From a virus: a DNA stretch of 64,000 nucleotides. Position numbers and translations under genes: made by a program. Below the pieces are notes generated by a model. It did not search any database, was not told the DNA's origin, and saw only the letters and a list, made by a program, of their open reading frames with translations. This document shows, in pieces, positions 5,966 to 48,166 of the stretch. The stretch covers positions 145,702-209,701 of IMG/VR virus record IMGVR_UViG_3300020179_000005. One strand, given 5' to 3'. Position 1 is the first letter of the stretch; every line of letters begins with the position of its first letter.

Positions 5966-6038
5966 TCATTCCCGAGCCTCTTCAGGCGGTCACTGCCTGC
6001 GTAAGAAAGTGGCAAAGCGGTCAAGGAGCCGCAGCAAT

Positions 6039-31620: not shown

Positions 31621-32700
31621 ATGGACAAAGTGTCTTACTCATTTGTAAAGCAAGAAGATAGCATTGTCTTTCGTTCCAAGGTACAGGCATTCAACCTTGA
31701 TCATGTAACGGACAAAGACATTCGTTCTTTTTATTTGCAGTTTTCACAGTATGCTGCCTTTGATACTGGTTTGTTACCGTTGGACGGAACTGGTTTGCTT
31801 TGTGTTCGCAAAGCAGGCGAATACACACAGGTTGCCTACCAGTACAAACCAGGTAGTTATTATGTTAACTGGGGGACATACGAAAAGGATCCTGAAGCCA
31901 AAAAGTATCTTTTGGCGCAACCTTATCGAGTGGTTATAATAGATTTTAAGTCCAACAATTTGTTGGGTGCTAGAACGTTTTACACCACTACCCCTGTTAC
32001 GCATCCAGATGTCCAGTTGTATCATGTTAATCTTCCCAACATAAATTGCAGAGGGTACCGCGGCAATGGCGTTGGATGGATTTGTTTGTATCATAATACC
32101 GATTGGAGTAGTCTGACGTTTAATGAGCGTTTGGCGCTTGCTTTGGAGCGTTGTTCCGGTTCTGAAGCATACAACGACAACAATATGTCGGAAACTGACG
32201 GTCCGAGATTCTATCGAGACATGTACCAGAACGATGCTTCTTTTTCCTACATGTGGAATCCCAGCGTTTGGCAGAACAAAACATCTCAGGACGGTTATGA
32301 GTGGACTTTGTTTGCCCCGTGGATTCCTGTTGTAGTTGAGGGTCTCGACCGGCAGGCAGCACATTCAACTTCTTCTGAAGCTGTTCCGCTTACATTTTCA
32401 ATGGCTTTGACTGGTACATACAAATCTTATTACACTGATAAGATGCCATTGAAACCCATAAATGCATTGCAGCGCAATGGAGAGAGCGTAATTACCGATA
32501 TTACCAACTATTTTGTACAGTCTTACAATAATTCTTCAACACAGTATGTTGGTAGGGACATAATGGAGGATAGTAAGAAGTTTAGAGACTCTAGAAAAGA
32601 AGTTAACCAAGGTCAGTTGTTTGAAGAGTCTGAGTCCGAAGAAGATGAAGATCATGATGATGACGACCATGATCAAGGGGGAGAAGAAGGTCCTTTTTAG
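31621..32700 (+). CDS. E2-like protein (PRTRC-B / Prok-E2_D-like), acidic GPF tail
   Basis: 359 aa. The core PYRVVIIDF...LLGARTFY...DVQLYHVNLPN...GNGVGWICLYHN resembles the prokaryotic E2-like signature (LY..P..PNV..dG.vC.G) of PRTRC system protein B, with the candidate catalytic cysteine at ~C155. Related segments occur at 41373 (C176) and 43274 (C160). The family is a proposed carrier for a ubiquitin-like modifier. The C-terminus is a long Asp/Glu run ending GEEGPF, resembling an SSB C-terminal tip. It opens the gene block leading to JAB, E1 and Ubl. ATG 31621 has a weak ribosome site. Assignment is by motif only. Confidence 0.55.
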   Translation: MDKVSYSFVKQEDSIVFRSKVQAFNLDHVTDKDIRSFYLQFSQYAAFDTGLLPLDGTGLLCVRKAGEYTQVAYQYKPGSYYVNWGTYEKDPEAKKYLLAQPYRVVIIDFKSNNLLGARTFYTTTPVTHPDVQLYHVNLPNINCRGYRGNGVGWICLYHNTDWSSLTFNERLALALERCSGSEAYNDNNMSETDGPRFYRDMYQNDASFSYMWNPSVWQNKTSQDGYEWTLFAPWIPVVVEGLDRQAAHSTSSEAVPLTFSMALTGTYKSYYTDKMPLKPINALQRNGESVITDITNYFVQSYNNSSTQYVGRDIMEDSKKFRDSRKEVNQGQLFEESESEEDEDHDDDDHDQGGEEGPF

Positions 32701-32801
32701 ATATAAATTCTAAAGAGACTTTCGATGGTGTACCACTTACAATACTGGCTCAAGACTACATAACTGGCAGTATTGATACTGTTGATTTTGACAATACTAC
32801 A

Positions 32802-33587
32802 TTGGTCTATTCCAATACTACTGGATTTTGGTATTCTAAAGATGGGGATTACTTGGCTGTTTGTTCAAATTGCGGTCAAGTACATTTTTGTTTTGAAGAA
32901 AATTATAATAAGTCTAATCCGTATGAAAGTTTTAATATTTGGTACCAAAATCAAGAGGCTTTCAATAATTTTTCTGATATGCCTGTTGTTATTTGTAGTA
33001 CTTGTAAAAAAGATTACATAGATGATATTTCAAAATGTAAATTATGTCTTGTTGATATACCTCCAAAAGAACATTATTCTCATGTTCACGAATTTAAAGA
33101 TACTAATCATTGTAAACATCTTATTTGTAATTCTTGTTCTAGTACTCATTGGTATCACCCTATGATGTGTCTGTGTGGCGAAGCAGTTTCAGAAGTTGAC
33201 ATGTATCAAATCAAACCGATAGTTATAGATGAAATAACTAGCACGCATCATTCAGACGCATTCTTTGCTTTGAAGGATAGGCTTCAACTAGAGCATACCG
33301 ATAGTGTTTATCTTTATGCTACTAAGATTTGTTCTTCTTGTTATTCAGAAAATCCATTTGATTATAATAAATTTATAAATAAGATATCAACTAATATTAA
33401 TATAGAAAGTTTGTCTTGTGTTGCTGATTCTTTGGGTGATATCGAGACAAAATATATACAATTGGTTGAGACTTACTACAAAAAGCCTACAGACGATGAT
33501 GTTGAAGTGTTAGTGCCTGCAATTTATTTACAGGCTCAAATCAAAAGTCACGGCTATGTAGGATATTTCTCTAAAGAAATAGTTTAA
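32802..33587 (+). CDS. RING-like multi-zinc protein (candidate E3)
   Basis: 261 aa from TTG 32802; the frame stays open and protein-like for ~35 codons further upstream but has no ATG/GTG/TTG there. Several CxxC pairs (CSNCGQVHFC, CSTCKKDY). The block C-x2-C-x21-C-x-H-x2-C-x2-C-x10-C-x-C (CKLC...CKHLICNSC...CLC, ~68-116) closely follows the cross-brace ligand order of RING fingers, including the CxHxxCxxC centre; only the last pair is C-x-C rather than C-x2-C. RING domains act as E3s, bringing an E2 to its target. It lies between an E2-like gene and the JAB/E1/Ubl genes. A different treble-clef zinc fold remains possible. Confidence 0.6.
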   Translation: MVYSNTTGFWYSKDGDYLAVCSNCGQVHFCFEENYNKSNPYESFNIWYQNQEAFNNFSDMPVVICSTCKKDYIDDISKCKLCLVDIPPKEHYSHVHEFKDTNHCKHLICNSCSSTHWYHPMMCLCGEAVSEVDMYQIKPIVIDEITSTHHSDAFFALKDRLQLEHTDSVYLYATKICSSCYSENPFDYNKFINKISTNINIESLSCVADSLGDIETKYIQLVETYYKKPTDDDVEVLVPAIYLQAQIKSHGYVGYFSKEIV

Positions 33588-33615
33588 TTAAATAACAAAT
33601 TGAGGAGGATATGAT

Positions 33616-35388
33616 ATGACAGTACCACAACTGAATGACCTGAAGCATTTTTGGATGCCTTCAGGTGTTCCATGTTTTATCGCAGATCGTCAAGACATAT
33701 GCGATGTCGTGGAGAATATGGGTTTTCAAATATATTATTTGCTTTCGAACCACAAAACCGAAACCAAGTCGGTCACAAATAGTACTCCTTCTGCGTCGCC
33801 GCATAATTATGGTTATACCACTTATGGAAATTCAACCGTTACGTCGATAAAGATAGAAAAGAAGCCTAGACTTTTCAAGGTCGTAAACAATTACGTAGGT
33901 AGGGTAGTTGCGGTAAGTAATGACGAGTTTCCTGCTGAATTCATTGACATTGAAGACGAATGTACTTATAGCATGCCCCTCATTCCCATTGATGTTGTCA
34001 ATAAGCTGGATGAGTTCTTTAGGCTTGTACACTCACAGCACGGTACGGAATCAATCGTTATACTTACATACGATACTACCAAGACCGGACCAGCAGGTTG
34101 GGGTGTTCTGGTTCCGGAACAAACAAACACCGCAGCCCATTGCAAGTATGATGCCGACAGCATCGTTGCATTAAAGCCCGAGAACGTCATGATTGTTGGT
34201 TCGGTACATTCGCACCCGGATATGCCTGCCTATGCTTCAGGCACAGATCATGACGATCAAGCTGATTTTGATGGTTTACACATAACCTATGGTTGGCAAA
34301 AGAATGTAAACAATGGTGCCACACAGTATTATGCCGAGTTACAAATGGCAGGCACAGGATACAAACTTGACATGGAAGATGTTTTTGAAACTGTAACGGT
34401 GCAGAAAGATCCTGATCCTGAAGTTGTGGAGTGGTCCACTAAAGTAAAAAAAGCCTACCCCCCCTACCAGGGGGGATACAACACCATTCAAAATGGTCGG
34501 CACACGCAAACAACTCAAACGACGACACCACAACAGCAGCCTGGGCTTCAGACTGGGAAGGCGGTTGGGGGATCTAGAACTCCTTTGAAGCAGGCCAGAT
34601 TTCTGGAAAAGTACGAGGATATGCTGGCAGCTTATCATATGCCGTACAACGCCGTTCTGGCTATTGAGGCAGAGCTTGATGAGCGGAACAGAGGACATTG
34701 TCTTGTGTGCGAAACCGAGATTAATATCTCCGATGTAAGAATCGGTTTGTGTCCCACATGCGAAGTTCCCCTTGTTCATCCAGAAGACCATATGTCTACG
34801 ATTGTTGAAAAGGTAGAGTCTTATTTGATCGACAATTATTTGCCGTATACTACTCCCGTTTATTTGTATTCGTTTACGGATGATAATCTTCCAAGCATAA
34901 TGAATATCAGTGACGAATTGAGATATTATACGGGTACGGCAATGAAGCCTATCGTTCAGAATTCTACCGTCAAAAAGGCGGATGTTTCTGACCTGTCTGA
35001 TTATGTTCATTTGCCAACACATACAGAGGACGTAATACCCATAGACAGTGCTTTCAGCTCTGGACATACTGCTTGTTGTGGTGTAAGGATAGAGAATGCT
35101 GAAGCTGATTGCGTTTGTGCCGTGAGACTGATGCCCGATGATGTTGTGGATTTTGATAGTTATTTGGCTGAAAATGCTGATATATATGTTCCGAATTCTC
35201 CATGCCATGATTGTACCCATTTTTATTCCATCAAATGCCCTGCGTTTAGAGAGCTTTTGACAGAATGGGTAAGGTCTAAAGATAGTTTCAACATTATTCT
35301 TTACACACATTCCGTCAATGGTTGCAGCAATTATGAACATTATGCAAATTCTTTTGCTGAAATTCAATATAATGACGAAATTAGATAG
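33616..35388 (+). CDS. JAB/JAMM deubiquitinase-like protein with C-terminal zinc regions
   Basis: 590 aa. The N-terminal half has a complete JAMM site: E145 (GTESIVIL), H198-S-H200-P and S208-x2-D211 (HSHPDMPAYASGTD). JAMM enzymes are zinc isopeptidases that remove or mature ubiquitin-like proteins. After a Gln/Thr-rich linker (~277-325) come cysteine clusters CLVC...CPTC (zinc ribbon) and CCG...CVC...CHDC...KC. A -1 frameshift signal at 34446-34475 sits exactly at the linker and would release the JAMM half with ~40 extra residues. GAGGAGG precedes ATG 33616; the E1 gene follows after 12 bases. Closest known arrangement is protein A of PRTRC cassettes. Confidence 0.85.
   Translation: MTVPQLNDLKHFWMPSGVPCFIADRQDICDVVENMGFQIYYLLSNHKTETKSVTNSTPSASPHNYGYTTYGNSTVTSIKIEKKPRLFKVVNNYVGRVVAVSNDEFPAEFIDIEDECTYSMPLIPIDVVNKLDEFFRLVHSQHGTESIVILTYDTTKTGPAGWGVLVPEQTNTAAHCKYDADSIVALKPENVMIVGSVHSHPDMPAYASGTDHDDQADFDGLHITYGWQKNVNNGATQYYAELQMAGTGYKLDMEDVFETVTVQKDPDPEVVEWSTKVKKAYPPYQGGYNTIQNGRHTQTTQTTTPQQQPGLQTGKAVGGSRTPLKQARFLEKYEDMLAAYHMPYNAVLAIEAELDERNRGHCLVCETEINISDVRIGLCPTCEVPLVHPEDHMSTIVEKVESYLIDNYLPYTTPVYLYSFTDDNLPSIMNISDELRYYTGTAMKPIVQNSTVKKADVSDLSDYVHLPTHTEDVIPIDSAFSSGHTACCGVRIENAEADCVCAVRLMPDDVVDFDSYLAENADIYVPNSPCHDCTHFYSIKCPAFRELLTEWVRSKDSFNIILYTHSVNGCSNYEHYANSFAEIQYNDEIR
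34446..34475 (+). promoter_or_regulatory. Candidate programmed -1 ribosomal frameshift site
   Basis: Slippery heptamer A AAA AAA (34446-34452) in the correct phase (GTA AAA AAA GCC), six-base spacer GCCTAC, then hairpin CCCCCC-TACCA-GGGGGG (34459-34475). The -1 frame ends at TAG 34575-34577. Heptamer, spacer and stem are all within the canonical ranges known from dnaX-type sites. Confidence 0.7.
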
Positions 35389-35400
35389 AAGGTGGATAAA

Positions 35401-36159
35401 ATGCAATCAAAAAGATTTGTTATCGTAGGTACAGGCGGCATAGGCACGTGGCTTGCTGCTGGTCTTGTACGTCTTTTGGAATGGAAAATGCCTGGTTCTG
35501 GTTTGATTCTCGTAGACGGAGACAACTACGAAGAGAAGAACAAGGAGCGCCAGGATTTTACAAAGTTAGGCAACAAGGCTGTTGTGAAAGCGGCCGAGTT
35601 GACGCCTCAGTTTCCCAAGACCACGATCATACCGGTACCAAAGTGGGTCGTGTCTGACGACAACACTGGAGTTTCCGCTGATAGTGATTCTCCCAGAATT
35701 AAGGCTTCCGACTTGTTGATTGACGGCGACGTTGTTTTTGCTGTCGTCGATAATTTTGCTGCTCGCAAGATACTTTTCGACGCCGCTGCAAAACTTATAA
35801 ACGTCGATGTATTCACAGGCGGTAACGACGATGCTTTGTTCGGTTCCATCTATCATTACCAAAGAAGAGATGGCAAGAACATAACTGAACATCCTGTCGT
35901 TTTTCATCCTGAATATGAAAATCCTCCTGACAAAAATCCAGGCGAACTTTCTTGTCAGGAAAGATCTAAGCTTGAGGGCGGTACGCAATTATTGGCTACC
36001 AATATGGCGGTGGCCGCATTCATACTTGGTAGGGTTCATAAGACCATTGTTCTAGATCAAAGTCCCGAAGAAACCGAAATCTATTTTGATTTGGGTTTGG
36101 GAAAATCTGAGCCCTACAACAGAATGGTTTCGCAGGTCAATCAACCTGCGATGGTATAA
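35401..36159 (+). CDS. ThiF/E1-like adenylating enzyme
   Basis: 252 aa. Rossmann ATP-binding loop VGTGGIGTWLA, acidic end of strand 2 (LVDGDNYEEKNKERQ, with the N-x2-R-Q element of E1 enzymes), VVFAVVDNFAAR, and a candidate catalytic cysteine C185 in GELSCQERSKLEGGTQLLATN. E1/ThiF proteins adenylate the C-terminus of a ubiquitin-like protein and often carry it as a thioester. ATG 35401 has AAGGTGG seven bases upstream and is preferred to GTG 35392. It lies between JAB and Ubl genes, the order expected for a conjugation cassette. No zinc-binding CxxC pairs of MoeB/ThiF are seen. Confidence 0.85.
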   Translation: MQSKRFVIVGTGGIGTWLAAGLVRLLEWKMPGSGLILVDGDNYEEKNKERQDFTKLGNKAVVKAAELTPQFPKTTIIPVPKWVVSDDNTGVSADSDSPRIKASDLLIDGDVVFAVVDNFAARKILFDAAAKLINVDVFTGGNDDALFGSIYHYQRRDGKNITEHPVVFHPEYENPPDKNPGELSCQERSKLEGGTQLLATNMAVAAFILGRVHKTIVLDQSPEETEIYFDLGLGKSEPYNRMVSQVNQPAMV

Positions 36160-36184
36160 AACAACAACACAATAGGAGAATAAA

Positions 36185-36436
36185 ATGGATCAGTCAGCAT
36201 CGCAGAATCAACCTTCTGCATCGCAAGGTATTGCCAATGTTCGCTTTGGTGTATACAATCAGCCAAGCAACATTGGAGGTAAAACAGTTTCTCAGGCAAG
36301 AGAGCAGTTTTCTCGACTGTGGGGCATTCCCACGGACGCTGTTGCCTACAAAGGCAAGGACAAACTTGATGAAAACTATGTCATCCAGCCAGGCGACAAC
36401 GTGGAGTTCCACCGTCGCGCAGGCGAGAAGGGCTGA
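36185..36436 (+). CDS. Ubiquitin-like modifier (Prok_Ub/PRTRC-C-like), GEKG terminus
   Basis: 83 aa. After a Gln/Ser-rich start, NVRFGVYNQPSNIGGKTVSQARE...WGIPTDAVAYKGKDKLDENYVIQPGDNVEFHRRAGEKG has the beta-grasp pattern of small Ubl/MoaD-like proteins and ends in RRAGEKG, like PRTRC system protein C which ends G-x-KG. The terminal glycine is exposed for adenylation without processing. AATAGGAG precedes ATG 36185. It sits 25 bases after the E1 and is followed by a strong hairpin, which would allow higher expression of this gene than of the ATPase downstream. Confidence 0.75.
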   Translation: MDQSASQNQPSASQGIANVRFGVYNQPSNIGGKTVSQAREQFSRLWGIPTDAVAYKGKDKLDENYVIQPGDNVEFHRRAGEKG

Positions 36437-36451
36437 TATAGTTCAAGGTTT

Positions 36452-36493
36452 GAGTGGGGGGGACCATAACCTTTCAAATGGTTTCCCCCACTC
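36452..36493 (+). terminator. Hairpin between Ubl and AAA+ genes (attenuator)
   Basis: GAGTGGGGG/CCCCCACTC with an inner ACCAT/ATGGT pairing; followed by TTATATAAAGG rather than a T-run, so partial termination or mRNA-end protection is likely. Confidence 0.65.
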
Positions 36494-36535
36494 TTATATA
36501 AAGGCGATATTTAATACAATAGAAAGCAGTATTTT

Positions 36536-38134
36536 ATGTTAAACGAAATAAAGATTGGTTATCCTGCTTTATGGATAAAAACCACTGAGTATTCTAGGGT
36601 TATTAGTAATATCGTGTCTTTTGATTTCAGAGACTATTATATGATAGATCCACAGCAAGGGTTTTCCAAGTACGTTGATTCAGATTGGAAACCGGTGCTC
36701 GTAGAATTTACTGACGAATCAGGCACAGTCGCTCATGTTCACACTTATGATTTATCTATTGCCGTAAATCATATAAAGAATAATACCGTTTCTGGAGGCA
36801 AGGCGCCTACGTTTTTGCTTCCCATACATGGCAAGCCAGAGGTTAATTTGTTTAGGTACGTGCCTATGGTGTATCAACTTGTTGAAAAGTATCGCAAGTC
36901 CTTTTGGACCGACACCATGTATGAAGAAATGCAGTTCATATTTCTTTCCGCTTTCGATGTGCCTGTTGATTATCCCAACCTTTTCAAAGTCATAGGTCAT
37001 GGAGTTCCCACTTCCGAAGAGTTGTTCCACATTGTGGATCATATTAATGTGTCTTCACATGGTCGTTTTGTTAATCCAGAAACCGTAAAAGATCTCGTAA
37101 AATCTGGCATTGGTCTAACGGAAACTGATTTCATCGATTATTGTTTGACTTCAATAGTCGACAACGGTCTTTTGGATCCAAAGTACATATACGAGAGAAA
37201 GATGGCCACCGTTAAACAAAAGGGCATTCTTGAGATCATAAAGCCTCGGTTGACATTTGCCGAAATCGGTGGTCTTGATAACATCAAGAACATAATCAAA
37301 CGTACCGCTTTCCTTAGGAACAATAGACAGAAAGCTGAGTCTTTTGGTGTGTCTCCAATCAGAAGAATATTGATGGTTGGTGTCCCCGGCACTGGCAAGT
37401 CGGCCATCTGTCAAGCTACCGCTAGTGAACTTGGGCTTGATCTTGCCAGAACCGGCATCAGCCAAGTCATGAATTCTTTTGTTGGTCAGTCAGAAGCCAA
37501 CATGCGTGCGGTGTTTAATCAGATTAGAGCTATGACGCCTTTGTGCGTTTGGATTGACGAGTTTGGTCGTGATCTTTCTGGTGGTTCGAGTTCGTCACAA
37601 GTTGACGCCGGTACCACAGATCGTGTCCATGGCGAGTTCTTAACTGGATTACAGGAATTACCAGAAGATACATTTTTGATGTGTGCCGCAAATCAACTTG
37701 ATAATTTGCGACCAGAGATGCTTCGCGCTGATCGTTTCGACAAGATAGTGTTCGTTGGTTTGCCATCTTACAGTGAGCGTGTAGAGATACTAAAGATATA
37801 TTTGTCTGGTATAGATACCGATCACGAGTACGATTATGATGCCCTTGCAAGAGTAACCGAAAATTTCACCGGTGCAGAGATTTCTGCTTTGATTAAAGAA
37901 GTCAAGTTCTTTGTTGTTGCCGATGAATTTCGTGCAATCAACACCCAGGACATTATGGCTCATGCCCCTAATGTTAAGAACATAATTTGGAATAAACATA
38001 GAGATATGATAAAATCAATGTACAGTTATGCCTTGGCACAATGGGATTGGGCTTCTTCTGAACAACAGATCGATGCACAAAACGTACTATCTGGTCGTAC
38101 CGTTGATCAGCCGCAGGTTACTTGGAAAATATAA
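36536..38134 (+). CDS. Ycf46-like AAA+ ATPase
   Basis: 532 aa. N-terminal ~240-aa domain of the Ycf46 type, then a classic AAA module: FAEIGGLDNIKNIIKR, Walker A GVPGTGKS (K288), VGQSEANMRAVF, Walker B CVWIDEFG (D341/E342), sensor AANQLDNL, arginine finger LRADRFD, and FTGAEISALI in the lid. AAA modules of this clade are close to those of FtsH, proteasomal ATPases and Vps4 and form hexameric remodelling rings. With the Ubl/E1/JAB genes upstream and a proteasome-like hydrolase downstream, it is a candidate unfoldase, although no HbYX-type C-terminus is present (ends TWKI). Start is ATG 36536; ribosome site GAAAGCAG is weak. Confidence 0.88.
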   Translation: MLNEIKIGYPALWIKTTEYSRVISNIVSFDFRDYYMIDPQQGFSKYVDSDWKPVLVEFTDESGTVAHVHTYDLSIAVNHIKNNTVSGGKAPTFLLPIHGKPEVNLFRYVPMVYQLVEKYRKSFWTDTMYEEMQFIFLSAFDVPVDYPNLFKVIGHGVPTSEELFHIVDHINVSSHGRFVNPETVKDLVKSGIGLTETDFIDYCLTSIVDNGLLDPKYIYERKMATVKQKGILEIIKPRLTFAEIGGLDNIKNIIKRTAFLRNNRQKAESFGVSPIRRILMVGVPGTGKSAICQATASELGLDLARTGISQVMNSFVGQSEANMRAVFNQIRAMTPLCVWIDEFGRDLSGGSSSSQVDAGTTDRVHGEFLTGLQELPEDTFLMCAANQLDNLRPEMLRADRFDKIVFVGLPSYSERVEILKIYLSGIDTDHEYDYDALARVTENFTGAEISALIKEVKFFVVADEFRAINTQDIMAHAPNVKNIIWNKHRDMIKSMYSYALAQWDWASSEQQIDAQNVLSGRTVDQPQVTWKI

Positions 38135-38142
38135 GGAGACAT

Positions 38143-38766
38143 ATGTCAGACATGGATCAAATAGAATATCAGATGTCTCAGACTGCTGAGCCTGTTGTAT
38201 CTGATATCTTACAGAAAGATTACGAGAAAGATCTTTACAAGAAATGGTTTAGGTCTAAAACTCAAAGTGGATTTTTGTCCATAAGGCCTTGGTATCAAGG
38301 TCTTAAGTTTAAGCTGGACATAGGTAAAACTTCGCCCGATGGCAAACTCATTTCTAGCACGATGGTATATTTAGATGCCATAGATTTTTCTGGTTATTTA
38401 AATTCTATTGCTATTGGTATAGGAAGCATAAATTTTCCCGCAAACAGCAAAACCGGTATTCCAACCGATGAAGGTTTTGTTTCTTACGGTGGAGGCATAA
38501 TAGAGTCAAAACCTATTTCTAGGATTTTCAAGTCTCATTATTGGCAGAATTCCGATAATAGTTTTGATTCTTCTGCGTTTGTTTGGAAGTGCGGTCATTT
38601 TGCTGCTAGAAAAACTGAGTCAGGTGCATTCATCCCGGACATGAAATCTTCTTTGTCCGTTGATAGCATAAAGGTTACTAGATCAGAAATAGTCAGCATC
38701 TCTCATATGTTGAATCTTTCGTTGATATCTCACGTGGCAAACAAATCAGATTGGTATGCCGTATGA
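38143..38766 (+). CDS. Hypothetical 207-aa protein
   Basis: ATG 38143 has AAGGAGAC upstream and lies eight bases after the ATPase gene, suggesting a partner. RPWYQGLKFKLDIGKTSPDGKLISSTMVYLDAIDFSGYLNSIAIG is beta-rich, as in OB or barrel folds; no family. Overlaps the next gene by four bases. Confidence 0.6.
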   Translation: MSDMDQIEYQMSQTAEPVVSDILQKDYEKDLYKKWFRSKTQSGFLSIRPWYQGLKFKLDIGKTSPDGKLISSTMVYLDAIDFSGYLNSIAIGIGSINFPANSKTGIPTDEGFVSYGGGIIESKPISRIFKSHYWQNSDNSFDSSAFVWKCGHFAARKTESGAFIPDMKSSLSVDSIKVTRSEIVSISHMLNLSLISHVANKSDWYAV

Positions 38767-39143
38767 CCGAACAGGGAAATTATGATACTGACTTTTCTAC
38801 CATACAAATTGCAATTGATAATATGTTGAACGTTCTCGCCAAAGAAGTCACTTCGGTTCAAAAGGATATCGAACAGAGAGTAGAAGCAGTCGAAAAACAG
38901 ATTGCTACTTTAGTTTTGGCGTACGGCGAACAGGCTGTTTTTATGGAAGCTTTGATAGGTCAGATAGCTTTTTCTACCGTTGAAGCCCAAAAGTCTTTTC
39001 GTGATACTTTGAAAGAGGCAAGAAAGTCTATGTTGGAGGTAATGCAGGATGGAACACAATCTTTTGTGGCAGACGGCGACAAAAAAATTGGACAAGCCAT
39101 TGCAGACGTGGTTGCAGAAAAGCTATCTGACCTTGGTCAATGA
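38763..39143 (+). CDS. Coiled-coil 126-aa protein
   Basis: ATGA overlap with the previous stop. Long helices with heptads (VLAKEVTSVQKDIEQRVEAVEKQIATLVLAYGEQ; FRDTLKEARKSMLEVMQDG). Possibly an oligomerisation or adaptor subunit. No family. Confidence 0.55.
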   Translation: MTEQGNYDTDFSTIQIAIDNMLNVLAKEVTSVQKDIEQRVEAVEKQIATLVLAYGEQAVFMEALIGQIAFSTVEAQKSFRDTLKEARKSMLEVMQDGTQSFVADGDKKIGQAIADVVAEKLSDLGQ

Positions 39144-40082: not shown

Positions 40083-40092
40083 GGAGAATGTT

Positions 40093-41358
40093 ATGGATAA
40101 CGATAGCAGTGTTGCCGAAGCAAGTTTATTGGATTACGCTTTTATAGGTAAACCTCAGATAAATTTAGATGAGGTGACTTATTTGAAACTGGAGATTCCT
40201 TGTTCTCCCAGTGTCGATACAGGAGAACCGGCGGGGAACTTGCTTATACAATTAAATTCTGTTATGAATTTTTATGTGTATCCAATAAATCCTAATTATG
40301 TTAATAGTGCCGCGGAGTTGGATGAGGGTCATTCTATTGACGAAATTATCATATTTGATTTATTTAATACCGGTAGTTTTTATATTTCCAAAGCTAATAT
40401 AATGAATGGAATTAAGTCTAATTCATTACCTTTGTATGTCCATATCAATAATGTTTGGAAATCTTCTCCGTTGATTAACACTGAATATCCACATGGATTT
40501 GTATACGCAGTCCAGATATCTTTTAGTGATCCATTTCAGGCTGATTATACGTTGAATTTTAAGCGTCACATATCTGAATTTTATGATGGCTGGGAAATTA
40601 TGATAGGGCATATGTTTTATGTAGGCTCTATGAAAAATTTTGTCGTATCCAGTGATCAATCTAAGAATTTATCAGATAAACTTAGTAATGATATTGAGAA
40701 ACTCACTAAGGCAATCAAGAAGATGAAGACAACAAATTTGTCGCCGAATAAGACTAAAGGTCATGAAGCATTTAGTGTTTTTAATAGTAAGGGTCAAAGT
40801 AACGCACCAATATTTCATACCGATATAATATTAGAGGAGGAAGAGTCCATGTCGCAGTTTTCAATATGTTCTTATTTTAGCTTGAAAACTCAAAACGTAG
40901 ATATAGTCAGCAAGGATTATGCTTATGCAAATCGTCCGGAAAACATTTGCATTTGTACGCATTCTGCTTTATCTAAGCCTGACAAAGCATCTTATTGTGG
41001 CTTTGGTTTGACTCCAAACCAAACTATCTGTCCTTATTATAAGTCTAGTTCTGTGCTACGAAAGAAGTACACTTCTAAGGGTAAAGGATCATTATCTTTT
41101 GATCTTTATGAGCATACAGATTACAAGGGAAATAAGGTTTTTAATTTGATCAATCCTGAAAATGATCAGGTGTCTTATACTTTGGTTCCTCCCGTAGACG
41201 CACCTTATGATCAAGTAGTTTCTGAAATTGATTCTGTGGTCAATGAGGTTGTTTCTTCTTGTCCAGAGGAAGTGTCTTCCACGTTGGTTTCTCTTGAAGT
41301 GCCTCCTTCTACTGAGACACCCGTTGAGAAGAAAAGCTTTATATTGTCTCTTATATAG
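40093..41358 (+). CDS. Hypothetical cysteine-rich 421-aa protein
   Basis: AAGGAGAATG precedes ATG 40093. N-terminal beta-rich domain (LEIPCSPSVDTGEPAGNLLIQLN), a charged coiled segment (~190-225), then a cysteine cluster SICSYF...ICICTHS...SYCGFG...TICPYY that could bind zinc or iron-sulfur, then an acidic C-terminus. It lies directly before two E2-like genes and is 10 bases after the previous gene. No family recognised. Confidence 0.55.
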   Translation: MDNDSSVAEASLLDYAFIGKPQINLDEVTYLKLEIPCSPSVDTGEPAGNLLIQLNSVMNFYVYPINPNYVNSAAELDEGHSIDEIIIFDLFNTGSFYISKANIMNGIKSNSLPLYVHINNVWKSSPLINTEYPHGFVYAVQISFSDPFQADYTLNFKRHISEFYDGWEIMIGHMFYVGSMKNFVVSSDQSKNLSDKLSNDIEKLTKAIKKMKTTNLSPNKTKGHEAFSVFNSKGQSNAPIFHTDIILEEEESMSQFSICSYFSLKTQNVDIVSKDYAYANRPENICICTHSALSKPDKASYCGFGLTPNQTICPYYKSSSVLRKKYTSKGKGSLSFDLYEHTDYKGNKVFNLINPENDQVSYTLVPPVDAPYDQVVSEIDSVVNEVVSSCPEEVSSTLVSLEVPPSTETPVEKKSFILSLI

Positions 41359-41372
41359 TGAGAGGAGTTTTT

Positions 41373-43133
41373 ATGCCAGGCGTGTATAATATAGTGCAGT
41401 ATTCACCTGACAATTCTAATTGGTTTCAGGTAAGGAACACATCAATAACTGGTTATTATTCTTGCGTAAGAGCAGCAAGTGAATTATTTCCAGAAGACAG
41501 TTTTGATTTTCTCGTTCAGTCATTAGTGTCTCTACAGTATGTTGTTCCTACTGAGCTGATTTACGATCAGCAGGACTATAATTTACAGATGCGTTCGAAA
41601 CGGCATATACTGCCTATGGCAGTTAGATACGTAGACAAGTCTCAGTCTTATTATATTGAACGCCCACCATGCAGAATTAATGTTAAATACAAAAATGCGA
41701 GAGCGTCGCACAGCGCTCCGGAAGTTGAAGATTTGTTTATATGGGTACCTTGGACAATAACAATAATGCCAGTTACGTTCATAAATAAATATGATCCAGG
41801 CGATGTAAGGATTTATTATTCTCATTCTGCGTTGTCTTCTTCTACTCAAATGTATATTAATTCTTTGTTTCCCAATACGCATTCAGATGCAAGAATATGT
41901 TGGTCTGGTTCTTTTTCAAATTTATTGACTCATGTAAAAGATCAGTCCGACTTTAATACTTTTGATTATAGATACTGGCATTCTATGATTTTTAATGATT
42001 ACATGTTAGGTGGATGGAACAATGACCTGATATCAAGACCATTGTATGCTTTGTCTGGTAGAACTAACGTGGGAGAAGCTGGGATAGTTAATCAGATCTT
42101 AGAAGGAGATTATAAATCTAAGTATCCTTTGGTAGATATGTACAGAAATCCTCAATCTTATCCTGAGTTTTACGATAGGTTGGTTTCTGTTGTAATTAAC
42201 AAGTTTAATTTTTCTAGATCCAAGGCATTGGATGTTGTTTCAAATGCACAATATGATTCCTATATCAGTAATTACGATTACGTAAAATTATTGTCTTTTA
42301 TGTCTTTATTGTCGTTGGAAGAGACTTTGTCTTTCTACAAACAAATTGGTGACGTTGTTAAGGATGTTGAGGTACAGAATAAGAAGAATAGCAAGAATAA
42401 AAAGAATGTTTATTCTCTACTTTCGTGTGTTGCCCAGAAGTTTTCTGAGGTTGTCAAAGAGTATTGTGCAGATATTGAGTTTGAACTTTTCAATCAAGAA
42501 GAGGATTTTCAGGATGCAATTAATGATCGACGGGAACAAGTTTTTGATGACATGGAAGATGTTTTTGATGACGAAGATCCTTCATTTAGTCCCGCACATA
42601 CTATTGATCCTTTGCTTAGTAGCGTATTTCAGTCGCAATCTGTAAATAGGCCTATAACGATGGGTGAACTTGGTCTTTGTATTCAAGATCCGCTTGTTAA
42701 GGCAGTGGCTGCAAATGATCCTCGTTGCACCATAGAAAAAGCATCTTCTTATTATTCTAATTATACAATAGTTTATTTATTTAAAAATATCAATAGGTCT
42801 CAAGTTAAAAAAATGGATTTGTATAGAGTAGACGATGCGTATAGTATTCTTGAGAGTCAAGGATTTGATTTTGCGCCTTTAATGGAGTTTTATTCTCAGT
42901 TGAAGAATCAAACTTCAGATACTTTTTTTGTTCACGCTGATTGTAAAGAAAAGACATACACATTTTATACCAAACAAGATCTTATTAATTATTATGATAG
43001 TTTCAAGGCTAATTTGTTAGATAGGCTTGCTTCTCTTGGAAATTCTCCAAAATCTAAGCAAAAGCTTTCAAAGAGTAATTCACAGATAGTGCATCGTATT
43101 AATGAAGCGATGAATTATATTAGGGTTAGTTGA
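41373..43133 (+). CDS. E2-like protein, second paralogue
   Basis: 586 aa from ATG 41373 (GAGAGGAG upstream). The region YIERPPC...VPWTITI...DVRIYYSHSALSSSTQMYINSLFPNTHSDARICWSG lines up with VLFERPPC...VPWQIYI...DVNMFFSSASLTEETQQLCLPPLPNFYTNGQLCRPF of the 43274 product and with the 31621 product. It also fits the PRTRC-B/Prok-E2_D pattern (LY....PN..dg.vCwG); candidate catalytic cysteine ~C176. The long C-terminal half has a basic patch (KKNSKNKKN) and an acidic stretch and is unassigned. E2 assignment is inferred from the motif. Confidence 0.55.
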   Translation: MPGVYNIVQYSPDNSNWFQVRNTSITGYYSCVRAASELFPEDSFDFLVQSLVSLQYVVPTELIYDQQDYNLQMRSKRHILPMAVRYVDKSQSYYIERPPCRINVKYKNARASHSAPEVEDLFIWVPWTITIMPVTFINKYDPGDVRIYYSHSALSSSTQMYINSLFPNTHSDARICWSGSFSNLLTHVKDQSDFNTFDYRYWHSMIFNDYMLGGWNNDLISRPLYALSGRTNVGEAGIVNQILEGDYKSKYPLVDMYRNPQSYPEFYDRLVSVVINKFNFSRSKALDVVSNAQYDSYISNYDYVKLLSFMSLLSLEETLSFYKQIGDVVKDVEVQNKKNSKNKKNVYSLLSCVAQKFSEVVKEYCADIEFELFNQEEDFQDAINDRREQVFDDMEDVFDDEDPSFSPAHTIDPLLSSVFQSQSVNRPITMGELGLCIQDPLVKAVAANDPRCTIEKASSYYSNYTIVYLFKNINRSQVKKMDLYRVDDAYSILESQGFDFAPLMEFYSQLKNQTSDTFFVHADCKEKTYTFYTKQDLINYYDSFKANLLDRLASLGNSPKSKQKLSKSNSQIVHRINEAMNYIRVS

Positions 43134-43154
43134 AATAGAAAGAGATATAACATA

Positions 43155-43247
43155 ATGGATCCAGTAATTATTGCAGCTATACTGACCGCAATCGGCGCAA
43201 TACTTGTTGCAGCGATTGAGGGTTTATTTGCTTATTATTTGTCTTAA
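43155..43247 (+). CDS. 30-aa membrane peptide
   Basis: MDPVIIAAILTAIGAILVAAIEGLFAYYLS, a single helix, between two E2-like genes; AGAAAGAG upstream. Confidence 0.5.
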   Translation: MDPVIIAAILTAIGAILVAAIEGLFAYYLS

Positions 43248-43273
43248 TAAACCAATATTCTATAGGAGATTAT

Positions 43274-44488
43274 ATGTCAAGTTTGATATCAATATTTGAT
43301 GGTACTACCGCTTATCACAGCACGAACACAAACTTTAAGGTCGTCGTTACTGATCATAACGATGAGTCGGTTAGTTTTTCTGGCTATGATGCTGTTAGTT
43401 ATCTGTTAGGTACAGTGTTTTCTGGGTTCAGTGGTAGTGTTCTTGATGGTAGAAATTCCGGTGTTTTACCTCCGGGCGTAAGAATTATTGACAGCAATTA
43501 TGTACTGTTTGAGCGCCCCCCGTGTTATCAAAACATTTTTTACAACACCGATAAAGTACATTCTAAAATGTCTGATAGCACCATGCATGTGTACAGGATT
43601 CCTGTGCCATGGCAGATATATATTGCTAGGTTCGATTCTAATTATTATTTAACAGACGTAAACATGTTCTTTTCTTCTGCTTCATTGACTGAAGAAACAC
43701 AGCAGTTATGTTTGCCACCATTGCCCAATTTTTATACAAACGGGCAATTGTGCAGACCCTTTTTTGCTGAGATGCAGGATGTAGAAAGATATCAGAAGAA
43801 TATTTCTGGTGTTATTGCGTCAGCTTATGATTGGGTTTGGAACAATGGAACCAACAATGACTTGAATGAAGCTGTGGTTCACATTAACTTACAATCTGTA
43901 TATCCTAAGTTGGAATCTACTGGGTTCAGTTTGGAATCTTACACTAGTGCTGTCAAGGACACGGTGTTTAAGCATGTATCTTATAATGACTATACGAGCA
44001 TGTTTGCCAATCCGTATGGCGCGGTGTACTACGCCGCCCCTCAAGTTATGACGATACTTTCTGCGTGGGAAAAAATACCGTTAGAAGAAATTTTGAGTGT
44101 TGTTTGGCCCGCTTCTTCTGTTGAGCAGCATTTTCCTTCCAGTGCTTACAAGCCATCGGGTATAGGTGATGAATTGTATGAACATCCTTCTTATTACGAT
44201 TGGCTAAACGATTGGGCTCATGATTATTACGAAGGAGAGGATCCAGAAGATATCGCGCACATGATTGAGAATGGAGATTATGACGGCGACGCATATTATC
44301 AGTACGTCCTTAATAGCGGTAAGATATCCCTTAAGCCGTATGTATACAATTATCTTACTTGTGAAAATGTATTGAAGAATATATCTTCGGAAAGTAGCAC
44401 TTTGGTTGCGATAAAGTCTAGATACAATTCATTTGTTTCTGCCGCTTTCATACAGAAGGCTAAAAAGTCCAAAAAGACAGAAGTTTAA
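43274..44488 (+). CDS. E2-like protein, third paralogue
   Basis: 404 aa, TAGGAGA before ATG 43274. Homologous to the 41373 product in its first ~170 residues (FERPPC, VPWQIYI, LPPLPN...NGQLC with candidate C160), then an independent C-terminal half with an acidic DYYEGEDPEDIAHMIENGDYDGDAYY stretch. Keeping three diverged copies suggests different substrate or partner specificity. A stretch of ~100 AT-rich bases with a palindrome follows before the MerR-like gene. Confidence 0.55.
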   Translation: MSSLISIFDGTTAYHSTNTNFKVVVTDHNDESVSFSGYDAVSYLLGTVFSGFSGSVLDGRNSGVLPPGVRIIDSNYVLFERPPCYQNIFYNTDKVHSKMSDSTMHVYRIPVPWQIYIARFDSNYYLTDVNMFFSSASLTEETQQLCLPPLPNFYTNGQLCRPFFAEMQDVERYQKNISGVIASAYDWVWNNGTNNDLNEAVVHINLQSVYPKLESTGFSLESYTSAVKDTVFKHVSYNDYTSMFANPYGAVYYAAPQVMTILSAWEKIPLEEILSVVWPASSVEQHFPSSAYKPSGIGDELYEHPSYYDWLNDWAHDYYEGEDPEDIAHMIENGDYDGDAYYQYVLNSGKISLKPYVYNYLTCENVLKNISSESSTLVAIKSRYNSFVSAAFIQKAKKSKKTEV

Positions 44489-44547
44489 GTTATTACATAA
44501 GGCTTAACATATTCAACTATCAAAACTTAGGTCTATCCTTTACTAAT

Positions 44548-44563
44548 TATATACACGTATATA
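44548..44563. promoter_or_regulatory. Palindromic operator-like site
   Basis: TATATAC-AC-GTATATA, 22 bases before the start of the MerR/excisionase-like gene, suggesting autoregulation. Confidence 0.5.
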
Positions 44564-44585
44564 AAGTTAAGTAAAGGTGCATAAA

Positions 44586-44879
44586 ATGGCTAGAACGGTT
44601 GTTGTTGAACCATTTTTTAATAGGTCTGAAGTTGCTGAGATATTGAATATATCTGTTCTTACGGTTTCGAATAGAGAAAAAGCTGGCAAGTATCCTGTTC
44701 CCAAAAGAGATTTAAACAATTATAGGGTGTATACTTTAAATGACATATTTAATCTTCAGCTTATTACTTATAGTCACGTCGATCCTAAACCAGTAATATC
44801 CGTCATGTACGACAAGGGTTATACTGATCCTAAGATTTTGGGGCAAATTATTGACGAAGTTTTTTCAAAGAGAGTATGA
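44586..44879 (+). CDS. MerR/excisionase-type HTH protein
   Basis: 97 aa from ATG 44586 (AAAGGTG upstream). FNRSEVAEILNISVLTVSNREKAGKYPVPKRDLNNYRVYTLNDI is the helix-turn-helix plus wing of MerR-like and HTH_17 proteins, usually transcription regulators or recombination directionality factors. The C-terminal part is short and lacks an effector domain. A palindrome lies just upstream; the stop overlaps the next start. Confidence 0.75.
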   Translation: MARTVVVEPFFNRSEVAEILNISVLTVSNREKAGKYPVPKRDLNNYRVYTLNDIFNLQLITYSHVDPKPVISVMYDKGYTDPKILGQIIDEVFSKRV

Positions 44880-45124
44880 ACATGAGTAATGATAAATCAG
44901 AAGATTTGAGTTTAGTAGATAAGGTCGAAGAGCCAATATTTACGGATTCGGTTGTTGAGTTGAAGTCAGGTATATACAACTTGTTTATATCAATGTATAA
45001 TAGTCTCATACTAGAAGTTGGTGTAGAGGAAGCCATACGCCAGTCTACTCAGTTTCTAGATGAAATATCATATAATTTTAAACAAATATTAATTGACCAA
45101 AAAGAGAGTAACAAAAATGATTGA
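44876..45124 (+). CDS. Hypothetical 82-aa protein
   Basis: ATGA overlap with the previous gene; MNMSNDKSEDLSLV, then a hydrophobic amphipathic helix (GIYNLFISMYNSLILEVG). Overlaps the SSB start by eight bases. No family. Confidence 0.5.
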   Translation: MNMSNDKSEDLSLVDKVEEPIFTDSVVELKSGIYNLFISMYNSLILEVGVEEAIRQSTQFLDEISYNFKQILIDQKESNKND

Positions 45125-45539
45125 TCCAAGAAACCTAATCAACATCACAGGCGGTGTCGTAGCTGACCCCGAGTTAATCAATGACAAAATTGCCAAGTTT
45201 CGTTTGGCGGTTGATTACGCCGGCCAAGAAAAAGGCGGAGACAACAATTCTGGTTATTTTGATATTGTTTATTATCTCAAGGATGCAAACGGTTTTGCAA
45301 GTAAGAATGCATCTTTTATGCACGGTCAAATCTCTGATTCCAAGATCAAGAAAGGTTCTAAACTAACAATTGTTGGTCGTTTGGTTCAGGAAAGATGGAA
45401 GCAGGAAGATCAGAATAGAAGCAAGGTTGTCATAGTTGCTGAGCATATTTCTTATGCTGCTACTGCAGGTTCTTCAAAGTCTTCTAGCACTAACGAAACT
45501 GCTACGGTAGGTTCGTCTTCGGTTCCAGATAGCTTCTAA
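45117..45539 (+). CDS. ssb: Single-stranded DNA-binding protein
   Basis: 140 aa from ATG 45117. OB-fold pattern of bacterial SSB: DPRNLINITGGVVADPEL, FRLAVDYAG, SGYFDIVYYLKD, IKKGSKLTIVGRLVQERWKQEDQNRSKVVIVAEHI, followed by a Ser/Thr-rich tail ending SSVPDSF, an SSB C-terminal tip variant. It coats single strands during replication and repair. Its stop overlaps the uracil-DNA glycosylase start (TAATG), so the two are coupled. Confidence 0.85.
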   Translation: MIDPRNLINITGGVVADPELINDKIAKFRLAVDYAGQEKGGDNNSGYFDIVYYLKDANGFASKNASFMHGQISDSKIKKGSKLTIVGRLVQERWKQEDQNRSKVVIVAEHISYAATAGSSKSSSTNETATVGSSSVPDSF

Positions 45540-46309
45540 TGCCGGATTTTGACGAAGATAATCTAAATTCGTTAATCCAAGAAGCTTTAGCCGAAAAAGG
45601 CACAAGTCAGTCTCATGCTTTTGCGGTTAATCACCTTGGTCATGGTGACTCGCAGCTTTTGTCTGTTGTCGCAAAAAGATTATCTGACTATTTGCCTGAA
45701 TCTTCTATCGACGCTTTCTTACACGAACTAAGAGTCGATCTTGTTTCTGGTAAGTCTAAATCTACCATAAAAGATCTTCACACTGTTGTGTTAAATTGTA
45801 GAAAGTGCGCTATTGCTTCCAAGCCTGAATTGCCGAAATGGAATTCTACTAATCCTAAAGTTGCAATAGTGATCGAAAGTCCTTCACTTGATTCAAATTC
45901 AATCGGTTTCTTGGTTGACAAAATCAAACAGGTTGGGTTTAAATCCGATCAACTTTGTTTAACTTACGTCAACAGATGTCCAAAGAGTGTCAAATACGAA
46001 AATCAAGAAGTTATAAATTGTGCTCCTTATTTGCATTCTGAGTTACAGCTGTTGCGCCCAAGCGTTATAATTACAATGGGATCTTTAGCTACTTCTGTTT
46101 TATTTGGCACGGAAGTAAAAATAAAGGATTATCGTGGAAATTTAACGGCCTTGGGTTATTGGATGGTGATGCCCATGTATTCACCAGGCTATGCGTCAAA
46201 GTTTGAATCCATGACAGAACAGTTTATTGCTGATTTAGTACAGGTTTATAAATATATAAATAATATACACATCAAAAAGGAACCCCATCATGCAGGCAAA
46301 GCAGTATAA
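45539..46309 (+). CDS. Uracil-DNA glycosylase-like protein (family 4/5 type)
   Basis: 256 aa. The C-terminal ~190 residues follow the family 4/5 UDG layout: first cysteine pair CRKC, PKVAIVIESP (substrate-binding motif region), YVNRCPK, INCAPYLHSELQLLRPSVIITMG and GNLTALGYWMVMPMYSPGYASK; the cysteines would hold a 4Fe-4S cluster. Motif A normally reads GEaPG or similar; IESPS here is divergent, so activity may be altered. It could act in base excision or as a DNA-binding accessory. Coupled to ssb. Confidence 0.75.
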   Translation: MPDFDEDNLNSLIQEALAEKGTSQSHAFAVNHLGHGDSQLLSVVAKRLSDYLPESSIDAFLHELRVDLVSGKSKSTIKDLHTVVLNCRKCAIASKPELPKWNSTNPKVAIVIESPSLDSNSIGFLVDKIKQVGFKSDQLCLTYVNRCPKSVKYENQEVINCAPYLHSELQLLRPSVIITMGSLATSVLFGTEVKIKDYRGNLTALGYWMVMPMYSPGYASKFESMTEQFIADLVQVYKYINNIHIKKEPHHAGKAV

Positions 46310-46658
46310 TCGAAGTGACTTGTCGGCTTTTGAAGCTTTGGTTAACAAAGATATCAAAACACAGGTTACTTCATCTGAATTGGAAACTTTGGTTTTAAAT
46401 ATTGATAAATGGTTTTATTGTTTGTATTCAATAAAAAGAGATGTAGAGTACAATATTTCTTCTCGCGAGGCCGGTAGAAAGATATTGCTACAGCAAATGA
46501 AGGATAGAAATGCACCAAAAGAGGACATCCACAAATTACTGGCAACGGAATCTTTGTGGAGAGTAAATACTCTTAAGTTTTTGAATTCTTTAGAGAAGAA
46601 AATACTTTATGTCAAATTGCTTATGAAGGAAAGTATCTTACAAGATAAGGTCGTCTAG
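46290..46658 (+). CDS. Hypothetical 122-aa helical protein
   Basis: AAAGGAACC precedes ATG 46290, which overlaps the previous gene by 20 bases. Helical and basic (EAGRKILLQQMKDRNAPKEDIHKLL). No family. Confidence 0.55.
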   Translation: MQAKQYNRSDLSAFEALVNKDIKTQVTSSELETLVLNIDKWFYCLYSIKRDVEYNISSREAGRKILLQQMKDRNAPKEDIHKLLATESLWRVNTLKFLNSLEKKILYVKLLMKESILQDKVV

Positions 46659-47101
46659 TGCCTAGTATATTATTGCATGTTCCAGAAACTATATCTTCTA
46701 TAGATTCGACTATTTCTGAGGACAGTTCATATTATTTGCATACGCAGTTTTTGACGATGTTTCCTTCTTATGTTTCTTACACTACTTTAAATTACAGTTT
46801 GGATGAAATTTTAGATTTAATAAATACTTTTGCTGTGTTTCATTCTAAGATAGATATTTTTGAGTCTTCAAAACAACAGATATCTTCTAGAGTGCCCTTG
46901 GAGTTATTCAGATATAAACTTTTGGACGATGGAACATGGTACTATGTTAAGACTGTACCTTCTAAGCATAAAGAAGGAAAAATCGTAGAGGGCGCATTGT
47001 GGTCTAACGGAATGTATTATGTAGTTAGGACTCAAGGCACCGTGTCTGATGCTGGTCTTTATGTCAATGAGTATACAAAGGAGTTTTACGGTTACCCATG
47101 A
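46658..47101 (+). CDS. Hypothetical 147-aa protein
   Basis: GTG 46658 overlaps the previous stop. Beta-rich C-terminal half (LLDDGTWYYVKTVP...GALWSNGMYYVVRTQGTV). No family. Overlaps the KTSC gene by four bases. Confidence 0.5.
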   Translation: MPSILLHVPETISSIDSTISEDSSYYLHTQFLTMFPSYVSYTTLNYSLDEILDLINTFAVFHSKIDIFESSKQQISSRVPLELFRYKLLDDGTWYYVKTVPSKHKEGKIVEGALWSNGMYYVVRTQGTVSDAGLYVNEYTKEFYGYP

Positions 47102-47379
47102 GTTCAATAAGGTCTATTTTCTATCGCACAAGTTCGTTTATTAAGAATGTTTCTTGGGACTCTAATAGTGAGGTTCTTTTAGTTCAGTTTTCTAGTGGTT
47201 CTACTTGGATGTATCATGGAGTGCCTAAAGAAGTTTATGAATCTTTAGTTAGGTCTCCTTCTGTTGGAGAGTATTTTAACAAAAATATAAGGAATAAATA
47301 TATTTGTCAAACTATAAATAAAAAGTCGAATATTAAGGAACATAAACAACATGGGAAAGAGAAACAAGAAGAAGAATAA
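47098..47379 (+). CDS. KTSC-domain protein
   Basis: 93 aa. SSFIKNVSWDSNSEVLLVQFSSGSTWMYHGVPKEVYESLVRSPSVGEYFNKNIRNKY matches the KTSC domain (short beta-rich domain with a V.F.sG..Y.Y..VP..vy..l....S.G.yFn pattern), common in phages, often linked to lysyl-tRNA-synthetase-related or nucleic-acid contexts; role unknown. Charged tail. ATGA overlap with the previous stop. Confidence 0.75.
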   Translation: MSSIRSIFYRTSSFIKNVSWDSNSEVLLVQFSSGSTWMYHGVPKEVYESLVRSPSVGEYFNKNIRNKYICQTINKKSNIKEHKQHGKEKQEEE

Positions 47380-47515
47380 ATGGAGGAATAAAAATAGGCG
47401 TATACTTTTTGTAGATCTTTCTTGTAAAACAGTCACATCTTCTGAAGTAAATGATATTGCCCACAAGGTTTTTGGTTCTTTGTATTATAGCAGTTCTTCT
47501 GAATCTAGGCTGTAG
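47351..47515 (+). CDS. Basic 54-aa protein
   Basis: ATG 47351 lies in the end of the KTSC gene with AAGGAAC upstream. Lys/Arg/Asn-rich start (MGKRNKKKNKWRNKNRR) then LFVDLSCKTVTSSEVND. Precedes the proteasome-like gene by 21 bases. Confidence 0.5.
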   Translation: MGKRNKKKNKWRNKNRRILFVDLSCKTVTSSEVNDIAHKVFGSLYYSSSSESRL

Positions 47516-47536
47516 TATGTTAGACTGTATTGCTAT

Positions 47537-48166
47537 ATGACTACCATAGTGGGTATACAGGGCGATAATTTTTCTGTGGTTTGTTCTGATTCGCGTATAT
47601 CTACCGTTGATGATGAAGGTGTCATTTCTCAAATTACTACTTTGAAAGATGGAAACGGCAAAGTTGCAGTGAATGGAAAGTACCTTTTAGGTGCGGCGGG
47701 AGACATGAGGGCGATTAATCTTTTGCATCATGTTTATCAGCCTCCGGCTGTACCTCCGGCAACGGTCGGTAAAAAGTTAGATCAGTTTTTTACTTCTAAG
47801 GTTGTGCCTTCGATAAGAGAGTGTTTTGAACAACATGGATATGCTTTGCCTGATACCAATGAAAAAAAGCATATAGCAGAGAACGATTCTACTGTTTTGA
47901 TTTCTGTTGCAGGAGTAATATACATACTTGATGGAGACTATTCTTGGACTTCTGATGCGCAGAATTTTTATGCTATAGGCACAGGGTCTTCTTATGCTCT
48001 GGGTGCCTTGCAGGTCATTAGAGGGAAAAGAAAGATATCCATAAATCAAGCTAAGACTTTGGCCCTTAAGGCCGTCAACGTCGCCGCAAGGTTTGATCCA
48101 GGCACTGGAGCTCCTTTTCATACTTTTGTGCAGGAAACGCCTAAAGTAGGCAAGAGACGTAGGTAG
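47537..48166 (+). CDS. HslV/20S-proteasome-beta-like Ntn hydrolase
   Basis: 209 aa starting M-TTIVGIQGDNFSVVCSDSRIS. After Met removal the Thr nucleophile is residue 1, with Asp at 17 and the DSR triplet (D17-S-R19) exactly where proteasome beta subunits and HslV have them. YLLGAAGDMRA matches the AGxxAD region, YAIGTGSSYALGAL the conserved GSG.yA motif, and ISINQAKTLALKAVNVA the last helix. Candidate Lys33 equivalents are K36 or K41. Like HslV it lacks a long propeptide. It may assemble into a peptidase ring served by the AAA+ protein at 36536, or interfere with the host proteasome. No strong ribosome site; start fixed by the Thr-Thr motif. Confidence 0.8.
   Translation: MTTIVGIQGDNFSVVCSDSRISTVDDEGVISQITTLKDGNGKVAVNGKYLLGAAGDMRAINLLHHVYQPPAVPPATVGKKLDQFFTSKVVPSIRECFEQHGYALPDTNEKKHIAENDSTVLISVAGVIYILDGDYSWTSDAQNFYAIGTGSSYALGALQVIRGKRKISINQAKTLALKAVNVAARFDPGTGAPFHTFVQETPKVGKRRR

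Follow-up and report, generated by a model that had tools for sequence, protein, structure and literature searches.

Does a bacterial virus encode its own ubiquitin-like conjugation pathway, and which proteins would it mark? The question is raised by a locus in the 64,000-nucleotide stretch analysed here (the window), positions 145702-209701 within the 209.7 kb virus record IMGVR_UViG_3300020179_000005. One strand of the window codes for an E1 of the ThiF type, a small ubiquitin-like protein (Ubl), a JAB/JAMM protein, three E2-like proteins (E2a, E2b and E2c), an AAA+ ATPase and a proteasome-beta-like hydrolase (Table 1). Family matches and, for Ubl, a structural model confirmed the E1, Ubl, JAB, AAA+ ATPase and hydrolase that the original prediction for this DNA had placed on this strand. 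We conclude, with a probability of about two in three (0.66), that this locus equips the phage with a ubiquitin-like conjugation cycle of its own, with replication/repair proteins as its likeliest targets.

Table 1. Features of the conjugation locus in the window
Feature	Position	Strand	Characteristics
E2a (E2-like)	31621..32700	+	C155 invariant, within a GW-x-CLY motif (codon 32083-32085); C-terminus acidic and SSB-like, last residues GPF
Cys-rich zinc-type protein	32802..33587	+	In most relatives its homologue is the C-terminal tail of E2a
JAB/JAMM metalloprotease	33616..35388	+	N-terminal domain and Cys-rich C-terminal region; Prok-JAB 1.6e-6, over cut-off
E1 (ThiF-like)	35392..36159, ATG also at 35401	+	ThiF 1.2e-11; Gly-rich nucleotide motif, ERQ arginine, invariant C188 (codon 35953-35955)
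Ubl	36185..36436	+	83 aa, beta-grasp; predicted mature C-terminus ...RRAGEKG; AlphaFold2 model and Foldseek
Hairpin, Ubl/AAA gap	36452..36493	+	GC-rich, terminator-like; read from sequence; window copy without a good T-run
AAA+ ATPase	36536..38134	+	Classic clade; Cdc48/PAN/IetA-like core, own N-terminal region; AAA 2.7e-23
E2b (E2-like)	41358..43133, ATG at 41373	+	Prok-E2_D-like; conserved Cys C176 in PN-x(2)-SDARIC (codon 41898-41900)
E2c (E2-like)	43274..44488	+	Prok-E2_D-like; invariant C160 (codon 43751-43753)
Proteasome-beta/HslV-like N-terminal nucleophile hydrolase	47537..48166	+	MTTI N-terminus; Proteasome 4.4e-8; phrog_1040 3e-23

Because Ubl and the three E2-like proteins score under curated cut-offs, relatives were collected by two IMG/VR scans with the window E1. 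These yielded 40 viral loci, representing about 22-25 distinct phages (the E1 sequences form 25 clusters at 99% identity, 22 at 95%). Profiles for gene order, built from a first set of relatives and then applied to the 40 loci, placed the genes of all 40 on a single strand, arranged as E2a-JAB-E1-Ubl-AAA-E2b-E2c, genes being absent only where the available DNA ends first. For these seven core genes, which are co-conserved, the predicted grouping held up in this synteny search. JAB, E1 and Ubl lie a few bases apart or overlap one another. In five pairs the ratio of nonsynonymous to synonymous substitution rates (dN/dS) was below 0.4 throughout, indicating purifying selection. It acts most strongly on E1 and AAA, with values no higher than 0.10, and on Ubl, with values reaching 0.14; JAB ranged over 0.00-0.18, E2a over 0.10-0.22, and E2b and E2c over 0.14-0.39. 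Constraint is thus tightest on the tag-handling enzymes; the fastest change is seen in the E2s, a pattern that would suit shifting targets. Invariant gene order, retained active-site motifs and low dN/dS amount to more than chance. The host of the window phage is likely actinobacterial, because WhiB was present in 14/14 related records (the window record included); among 14 control genomes it matched only in Corynebacterium. The carriers of the cassette form a group of large viruses that are uncultured and would infect actinobacteria. A divergent extra cassette (L071), with an E1 59% identical, comes from a 10.4 kb contig in a metagenome-assembled genome named Ectothiorhodospiraceae. On one contig of 267,766 bp (G014; loci L032 and L037) the entire operon is present in two differing versions and HslV occurs twice, through either chimeric assembly or real duplication.

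The putative E1 carries the adenylation motifs of the ThiF superfamily, GxGGxG being present in 40/41 sequences and a PGE-x-SC motif with the invariant C188 in 41/41. Its profile matched an alignment of PRTRC-type ThiF proteins at 5e-21 across 217 columns; unrelated alignment pairs, our negative controls for profile-profile matches, gave 0.05-0.9. The JAB protein has the JAMM motif (H198-x-H200-x7-S208-x2-D211), kept in 38/40 sequences, the other two being truncated open reading frames (ORFs). Its best PDB matches, all weak, include an Rpn11 homologue and AMSH, and its predicted function is Ubl processing and deconjugation. Direct profile searches of the PDB with Ubl, E1, E2a and E2c returned nothing useful.

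The window Ubl had no family match by sequence, nor did a Prok_Ub search give one. An AlphaFold2 model built on 25 sequences has a beta-beta-alpha-beta-beta core at pLDDT ~90, and its 50 listed Foldseek matches comprise ubiquitin, engineered ubiquitins, NEDD8, SUMO, Caldiarchaeum ubiquitin and similar modifiers (probability 1.00, TM score ~0.6-0.7). In the model, Ubl combines the two features of a ubiquitin-like modifier, a beta-grasp fold and an exposed C-terminal glycine. The protein ends in GEKG in 37/41 sequences and in GEKGSL or GEKGNI in 4/41; the L071 Ubl ends in GEKGSK. As judged from its sequence, the cultured Bacillus phage vB_BauM_KLEB27-3 encodes a polyubiquitin-like precursor: gp199 (L069:718-1425) is a string of four Prok_Ub domains in tandem (5e-27), all with GVKG as their last residues, near E2-, JAB- and ThiF-like genes. 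The two-residue extensions and this tandem precursor suggest proteolytic maturation with JAB as the candidate enzyme, a removable extension being expected if such a protease exposes the glycine. The window Ubl did not match three PRTRC-C sequences alone, and gave a local profile match of 5e-4 against PRTRC-C plus the KLEB27-3 repeats ending in GxKG.

Among the E2-like proteins, E2b and E2c are paralogues (profile match ~1e-12), and they matched an alignment of PRTRC-B with plasmid and phage Prok-E2_D proteins at 3.4e-6 and 4e-7, respectively. The Pfam Prok-E2_D model matched weakly in 8/23 E2c members (13.3 bits against 25 in the window test). The core of E2a matched the E2c profile at 7e-7. 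In all three proteins the profile match extends to a PN motif followed by the invariant cysteine; the cysteine motif was kept in 38/38 E2a and 38/38 E2c sequences, and the E2b cysteine in the members aligned. The acidic C-terminus of E2a ends in PF in 32/38 sequences. Acidic, PF-ending C-termini resemble the tip of bacterial SSB proteins, and by this analogy the tail is a possible docking site for SSB partners, which we regard as a lead. The SSB proteins of the relatives have a conserved [IV]P-x-x-F end. Three of the 64 plus-strand ORFs of at least 100 aa in the window end in PF: E2a itself (31621-32700), 5946-6551 and 9225-10262, the latter two without family match.

The gene at 32802 had been predicted to encode a RING-like zinc protein. 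In most relatives E2a runs on into a Cys-rich tail, for a total of 455-679 aa, and a hidden Markov model of 23 such tails scored the 32802 protein at 37.1 bits, the best of 300 shuffles reaching 4.9; the tail is therefore a separate gene in the window phage. Consistent with this, the protein matched the tail of one relative (L023) by blastp at 6e-5. The stand-alone gene was found only in the window phage and its near-identical relative L002, and the tail is absent in L003. Canonical RING spacing (C3HC4-type cross-brace) was absent from the 32802 protein and from the 23 homologous tails, whose Pfam matches are scattered, weak zinc motifs; the divergent L071 tail gave weak RING (0.019) and IBR (0.013) matches. 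We rejected the RING identity on these grounds. The 32802 protein and the tails are better described as a putative CxxC zinc-knuckle array travelling with an E2.

Which known system does this cassette resemble? Like PRTRC cassettes (type 6d; Iyer, Burroughs and Aravind 2006, PMC1779556), it has a separate E1, a JAB with an N-terminal domain, Prok-E2_D-like proteins and a small Gly-ending Ubl. Profile similarity links E1, JAB and E2b/E2c distantly to the PRTRC cassette, and E2a by way of E2c, and the predicted kinship was upheld by profile matches with controls. In contrast to PRTRC, the phage cassette has three E2s, a zinc tail on E2a and a Ubl under family detection. Its E1 and JAB also lie far under the curated PRTRC cut-offs, at 22.0 bits against 144.75 for ThiF and 16.4 bits (E 0.005) against 101.8 for protein A, and ParB_N was found in 0/14 phage records, with a control positive in 11/14 genomes. 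Because these cut-offs were not reached and the ParB component was not found, we describe the locus as PRTRC/6d-like and do not class it as a PRTRC member.

The idea that phages have no known systems of this kind needs qualification. Our literature search, partial in its coverage, found no paper on a phage-encoded PRTRC-type system, whereas in databases some isolated phages already have genes annotated as PRTRC or ThiF. Weak matches pointed to cassettes, whole or in part, in phage isolates. JAB and ThiF occur together, as in the window, in Salmonella phage Arash (gp247 and gp246), Vibrio phage D69, KLEB27-3 (gp195 and gp194), Acinetobacter phage ME3 (whose JAB-type gene bears the annotation PRTRC A) and gut phage MT835919. 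A Prok-E2_D-like E2 accompanies them in Arash (gp248), D69, KLEB27-3 (gp196) and, by inspection of the sequence, MT835919. These cassettes differ from that of the window, since a single E2 was found and no zinc tail was seen. They are not close kin either: the MT835919 E1 is 27% identical to the window E1, and tblastn searches starting from the window E1 did not reach the other phages.

We propose the following cycle. JAB would trim Ubl where extra residues exist, as observed in some phages, and E1 would adenylate the C-terminal glycine and may hold Ubl on C188. E2a, E2b and E2c would then hand Ubl via their conserved cysteines to target lysines, with the zinc tail of E2a, or the detached 32802 protein in the window phage, acting as a putative E3-like target adaptor. 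Finally, JAB would strip the tag, making the modification reversible. The targets would most likely be proteins of DNA replication or repair, from the phage or its host, because SSB (phrog_44) and a UDG-like gene (named from sequence and weak family matches) follow directly on the operon, and because plasmid relatives of the cassette are found near dnaN, Rad52, SSB or ParB genes. A possible task of the AAA+ ATPase is to remodel complexes that bear the tag; the HslV-like enzyme need not degrade them for the cycle to run.

Several observations weigh against this cycle. E2a itself matched PRTRC-B at just 2e-3, and Foldseek found no significant solved fold for it in the PDB; against viral models most of what it returned belonged to the E2a family or to phage proteins without a name. 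For an E2a relative (L004), the AlphaFold2 model reaches a mean pLDDT of 72 and is least certain near the PN motif upstream of the cysteine. Because of this model confidence and the fold search, we label the three proteins E2-like, E2a being the least supported; of the three paralogues originally predicted, E2b and E2c stand by their own matches and E2a through E2c. The downstream histidine reported for Prok-E2_D-type E2s (Iyer et al. 2006, PMC1779556) is not invariant in the phage alignments. No sliding-clamp match (DnaN domain) was found in 14 records; a PCNA-like target on a phage clamp was thus not seen at that sensitivity, and the clamp was set aside as a phage target.

One alternative to consider is that the locus forms a phage proteasome, in which the AAA+ ring unfolds Ubl-tagged proteins and the HslV-like hydrolase cuts them. 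The original prediction had included such a degradation step and a dedicated AAA+ ATPase. The AAA+ core is indeed closest to Cdc48/PAN models (phrog_8638 6e-68; CDC48 6e-35; IetA 8.5e-29), the HslV-like enzyme keeps its MTTI N-terminus and a conserved active-site region, and its gene was found in 9/10 and 10/16 records examined. However, HslV was not found in a sub-lineage of five substantial records (G011, G012 and G013, of 179-194 kb, G019 and G021) that keep all seven core genes, and it was also missed there by the Pfam model, which matches weakly even in positive records. Conversely, an HslV 47% identical is present in Actinomycetia phage DSL-LC01, where searches detected neither an E1 nor a JAB relative. 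The HslV-like gene is accessory, outside the conserved core, and lies ~9 kb from the AAA gene; degradation is thus optional at best. The ATPase did not prove dedicated to the cassette either. Its core family occurs in ~100 other phage records with unrelated hosts, among which, as listed, the sole record matching the window E1 does not appear (the E1 search being insensitive); L071 has a DUF6551/ParB-like gene (4823-5740), recalling PRTRC ParB, downstream of Ubl at the expected place of AAA; and the HbYX C-terminal motif of PAN/Mpa-type ATPases was present in 0/41 AAA proteins. Phage proteasome homologues (PPH, AAH; PMC8665760) likewise place a proteasome-like hydrolase in phages, but that of the window is near, yet separable from, a Ubl cassette. 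We consider a tag-and-degrade pathway improbable. Since the RING, dedicated-AAA+ and degradation claims failed, reversible tagging is better supported; of the two outcomes first proposed for tagged proteins, de-tagging is favoured over degradation.

Could the enzymes instead counter host defences, be biosynthetic or serve the virion? Host Ubl-conjugating defences exist (PMC10097602; Bil as cited in PMC12135933), and phage enzymes might disturb Bil or CBASS Cap2/Cap3, for example through JAB removing host tags or Ubl acting as a decoy. CBASS Cap2/Cap3 and Bil have the E1-E2-Ubl/JAB logic in common with the window, JAB is always present, and E1 weakly matched the PADLOC E1-E2 models (1.1e-7). 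Unlike these systems, however, the window has E1 and E2 on separate genes and no CD-NTase was seen in its operon; JAB, Ubl and the E2s had no PADLOC match, and the full set of E1, Ubl and three E2s exceeds what a decoy needs, leaving an anti-defence role only a small chance. A ThiS/MoaD-like sulfur carrier for biosynthetic thiolation, with ThiF as its activating and JAB as its maturing enzyme, would account for ThiF-type E1, Ubl and JAB, which also occur together in sulfur pathways (PMC1779556). It would not account for three E2-like partners; rhodanese was found in 0/14 records, and neither ThiS nor MoaD is among the 50 listed Foldseek matches of Ubl, making this the least probable of the alternatives. 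A role in virion assembly or superinfection exclusion, the system modifying structural proteins of its own phage or of competitors, would accord with Arash, whose E2-like gp248 and ThiF gp246 (L051:1519-2274 and 3499-4539) carry the annotation 'structural protein'. The window genes adjoin SSB and UDG-like genes and no obvious structural block, and we judge such a role very unlikely. The conjugation cycle could also be drawn more boldly, as a complete reversible Ubl pathway of an actinophage lineage, with three E2s dividing labour, the zinc module as E3 and a Cdc48-like ATPase, controlling the replication machinery or host takeover; taken as a whole, this is speculative and rather unlikely.

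Other features of the region concern the operon and its surroundings. The gap between Ubl and AAA contains strong GC-rich hairpins in most of 22 loci scanned (z mostly -2.4 to -8.6; the window copy was outside the scan). Their stems differ in sequence among phages and many are followed by T-runs, which suggests that transcription of E2a-JAB-E1-Ubl can stop ahead of AAA. The gene following AAA in the window (38122) was compared, as a candidate shared partner, with the genes following AAA homologues in JP1, L338C, Dylan and RcMenchie, and was rejected as no similarity was found. The AAA+ ATPase resembles IetA of the IetA/subtilisin defence pair, and a subtilisin-like protease ORF with a signal-like N-terminus lies at 23325-24737, ~12 kb away. 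Two large ORFs at 3138-5780 and 14473-17058 (880 and 861 aa) have a common RSPNG-x-G-x-YSI motif and may be paralogues.

Bacterial Ubl conjugation has so far been studied mainly as an anti-phage defence (PMC10097602). The loci described here place Ubl conjugation genes on the virus side. To our knowledge, the function of PRTRC/6d-type systems is not established, and a phage lineage with a fixed cassette offers a compact system for testing substrates and purpose. The tandem Ubl precursor of KLEB27-3, a cultured Bacillus phage, provides an immediate experimental model. These sequences raise the prospect of a phage that labels proteins, in the manner of ubiquitin, while it infects its host.

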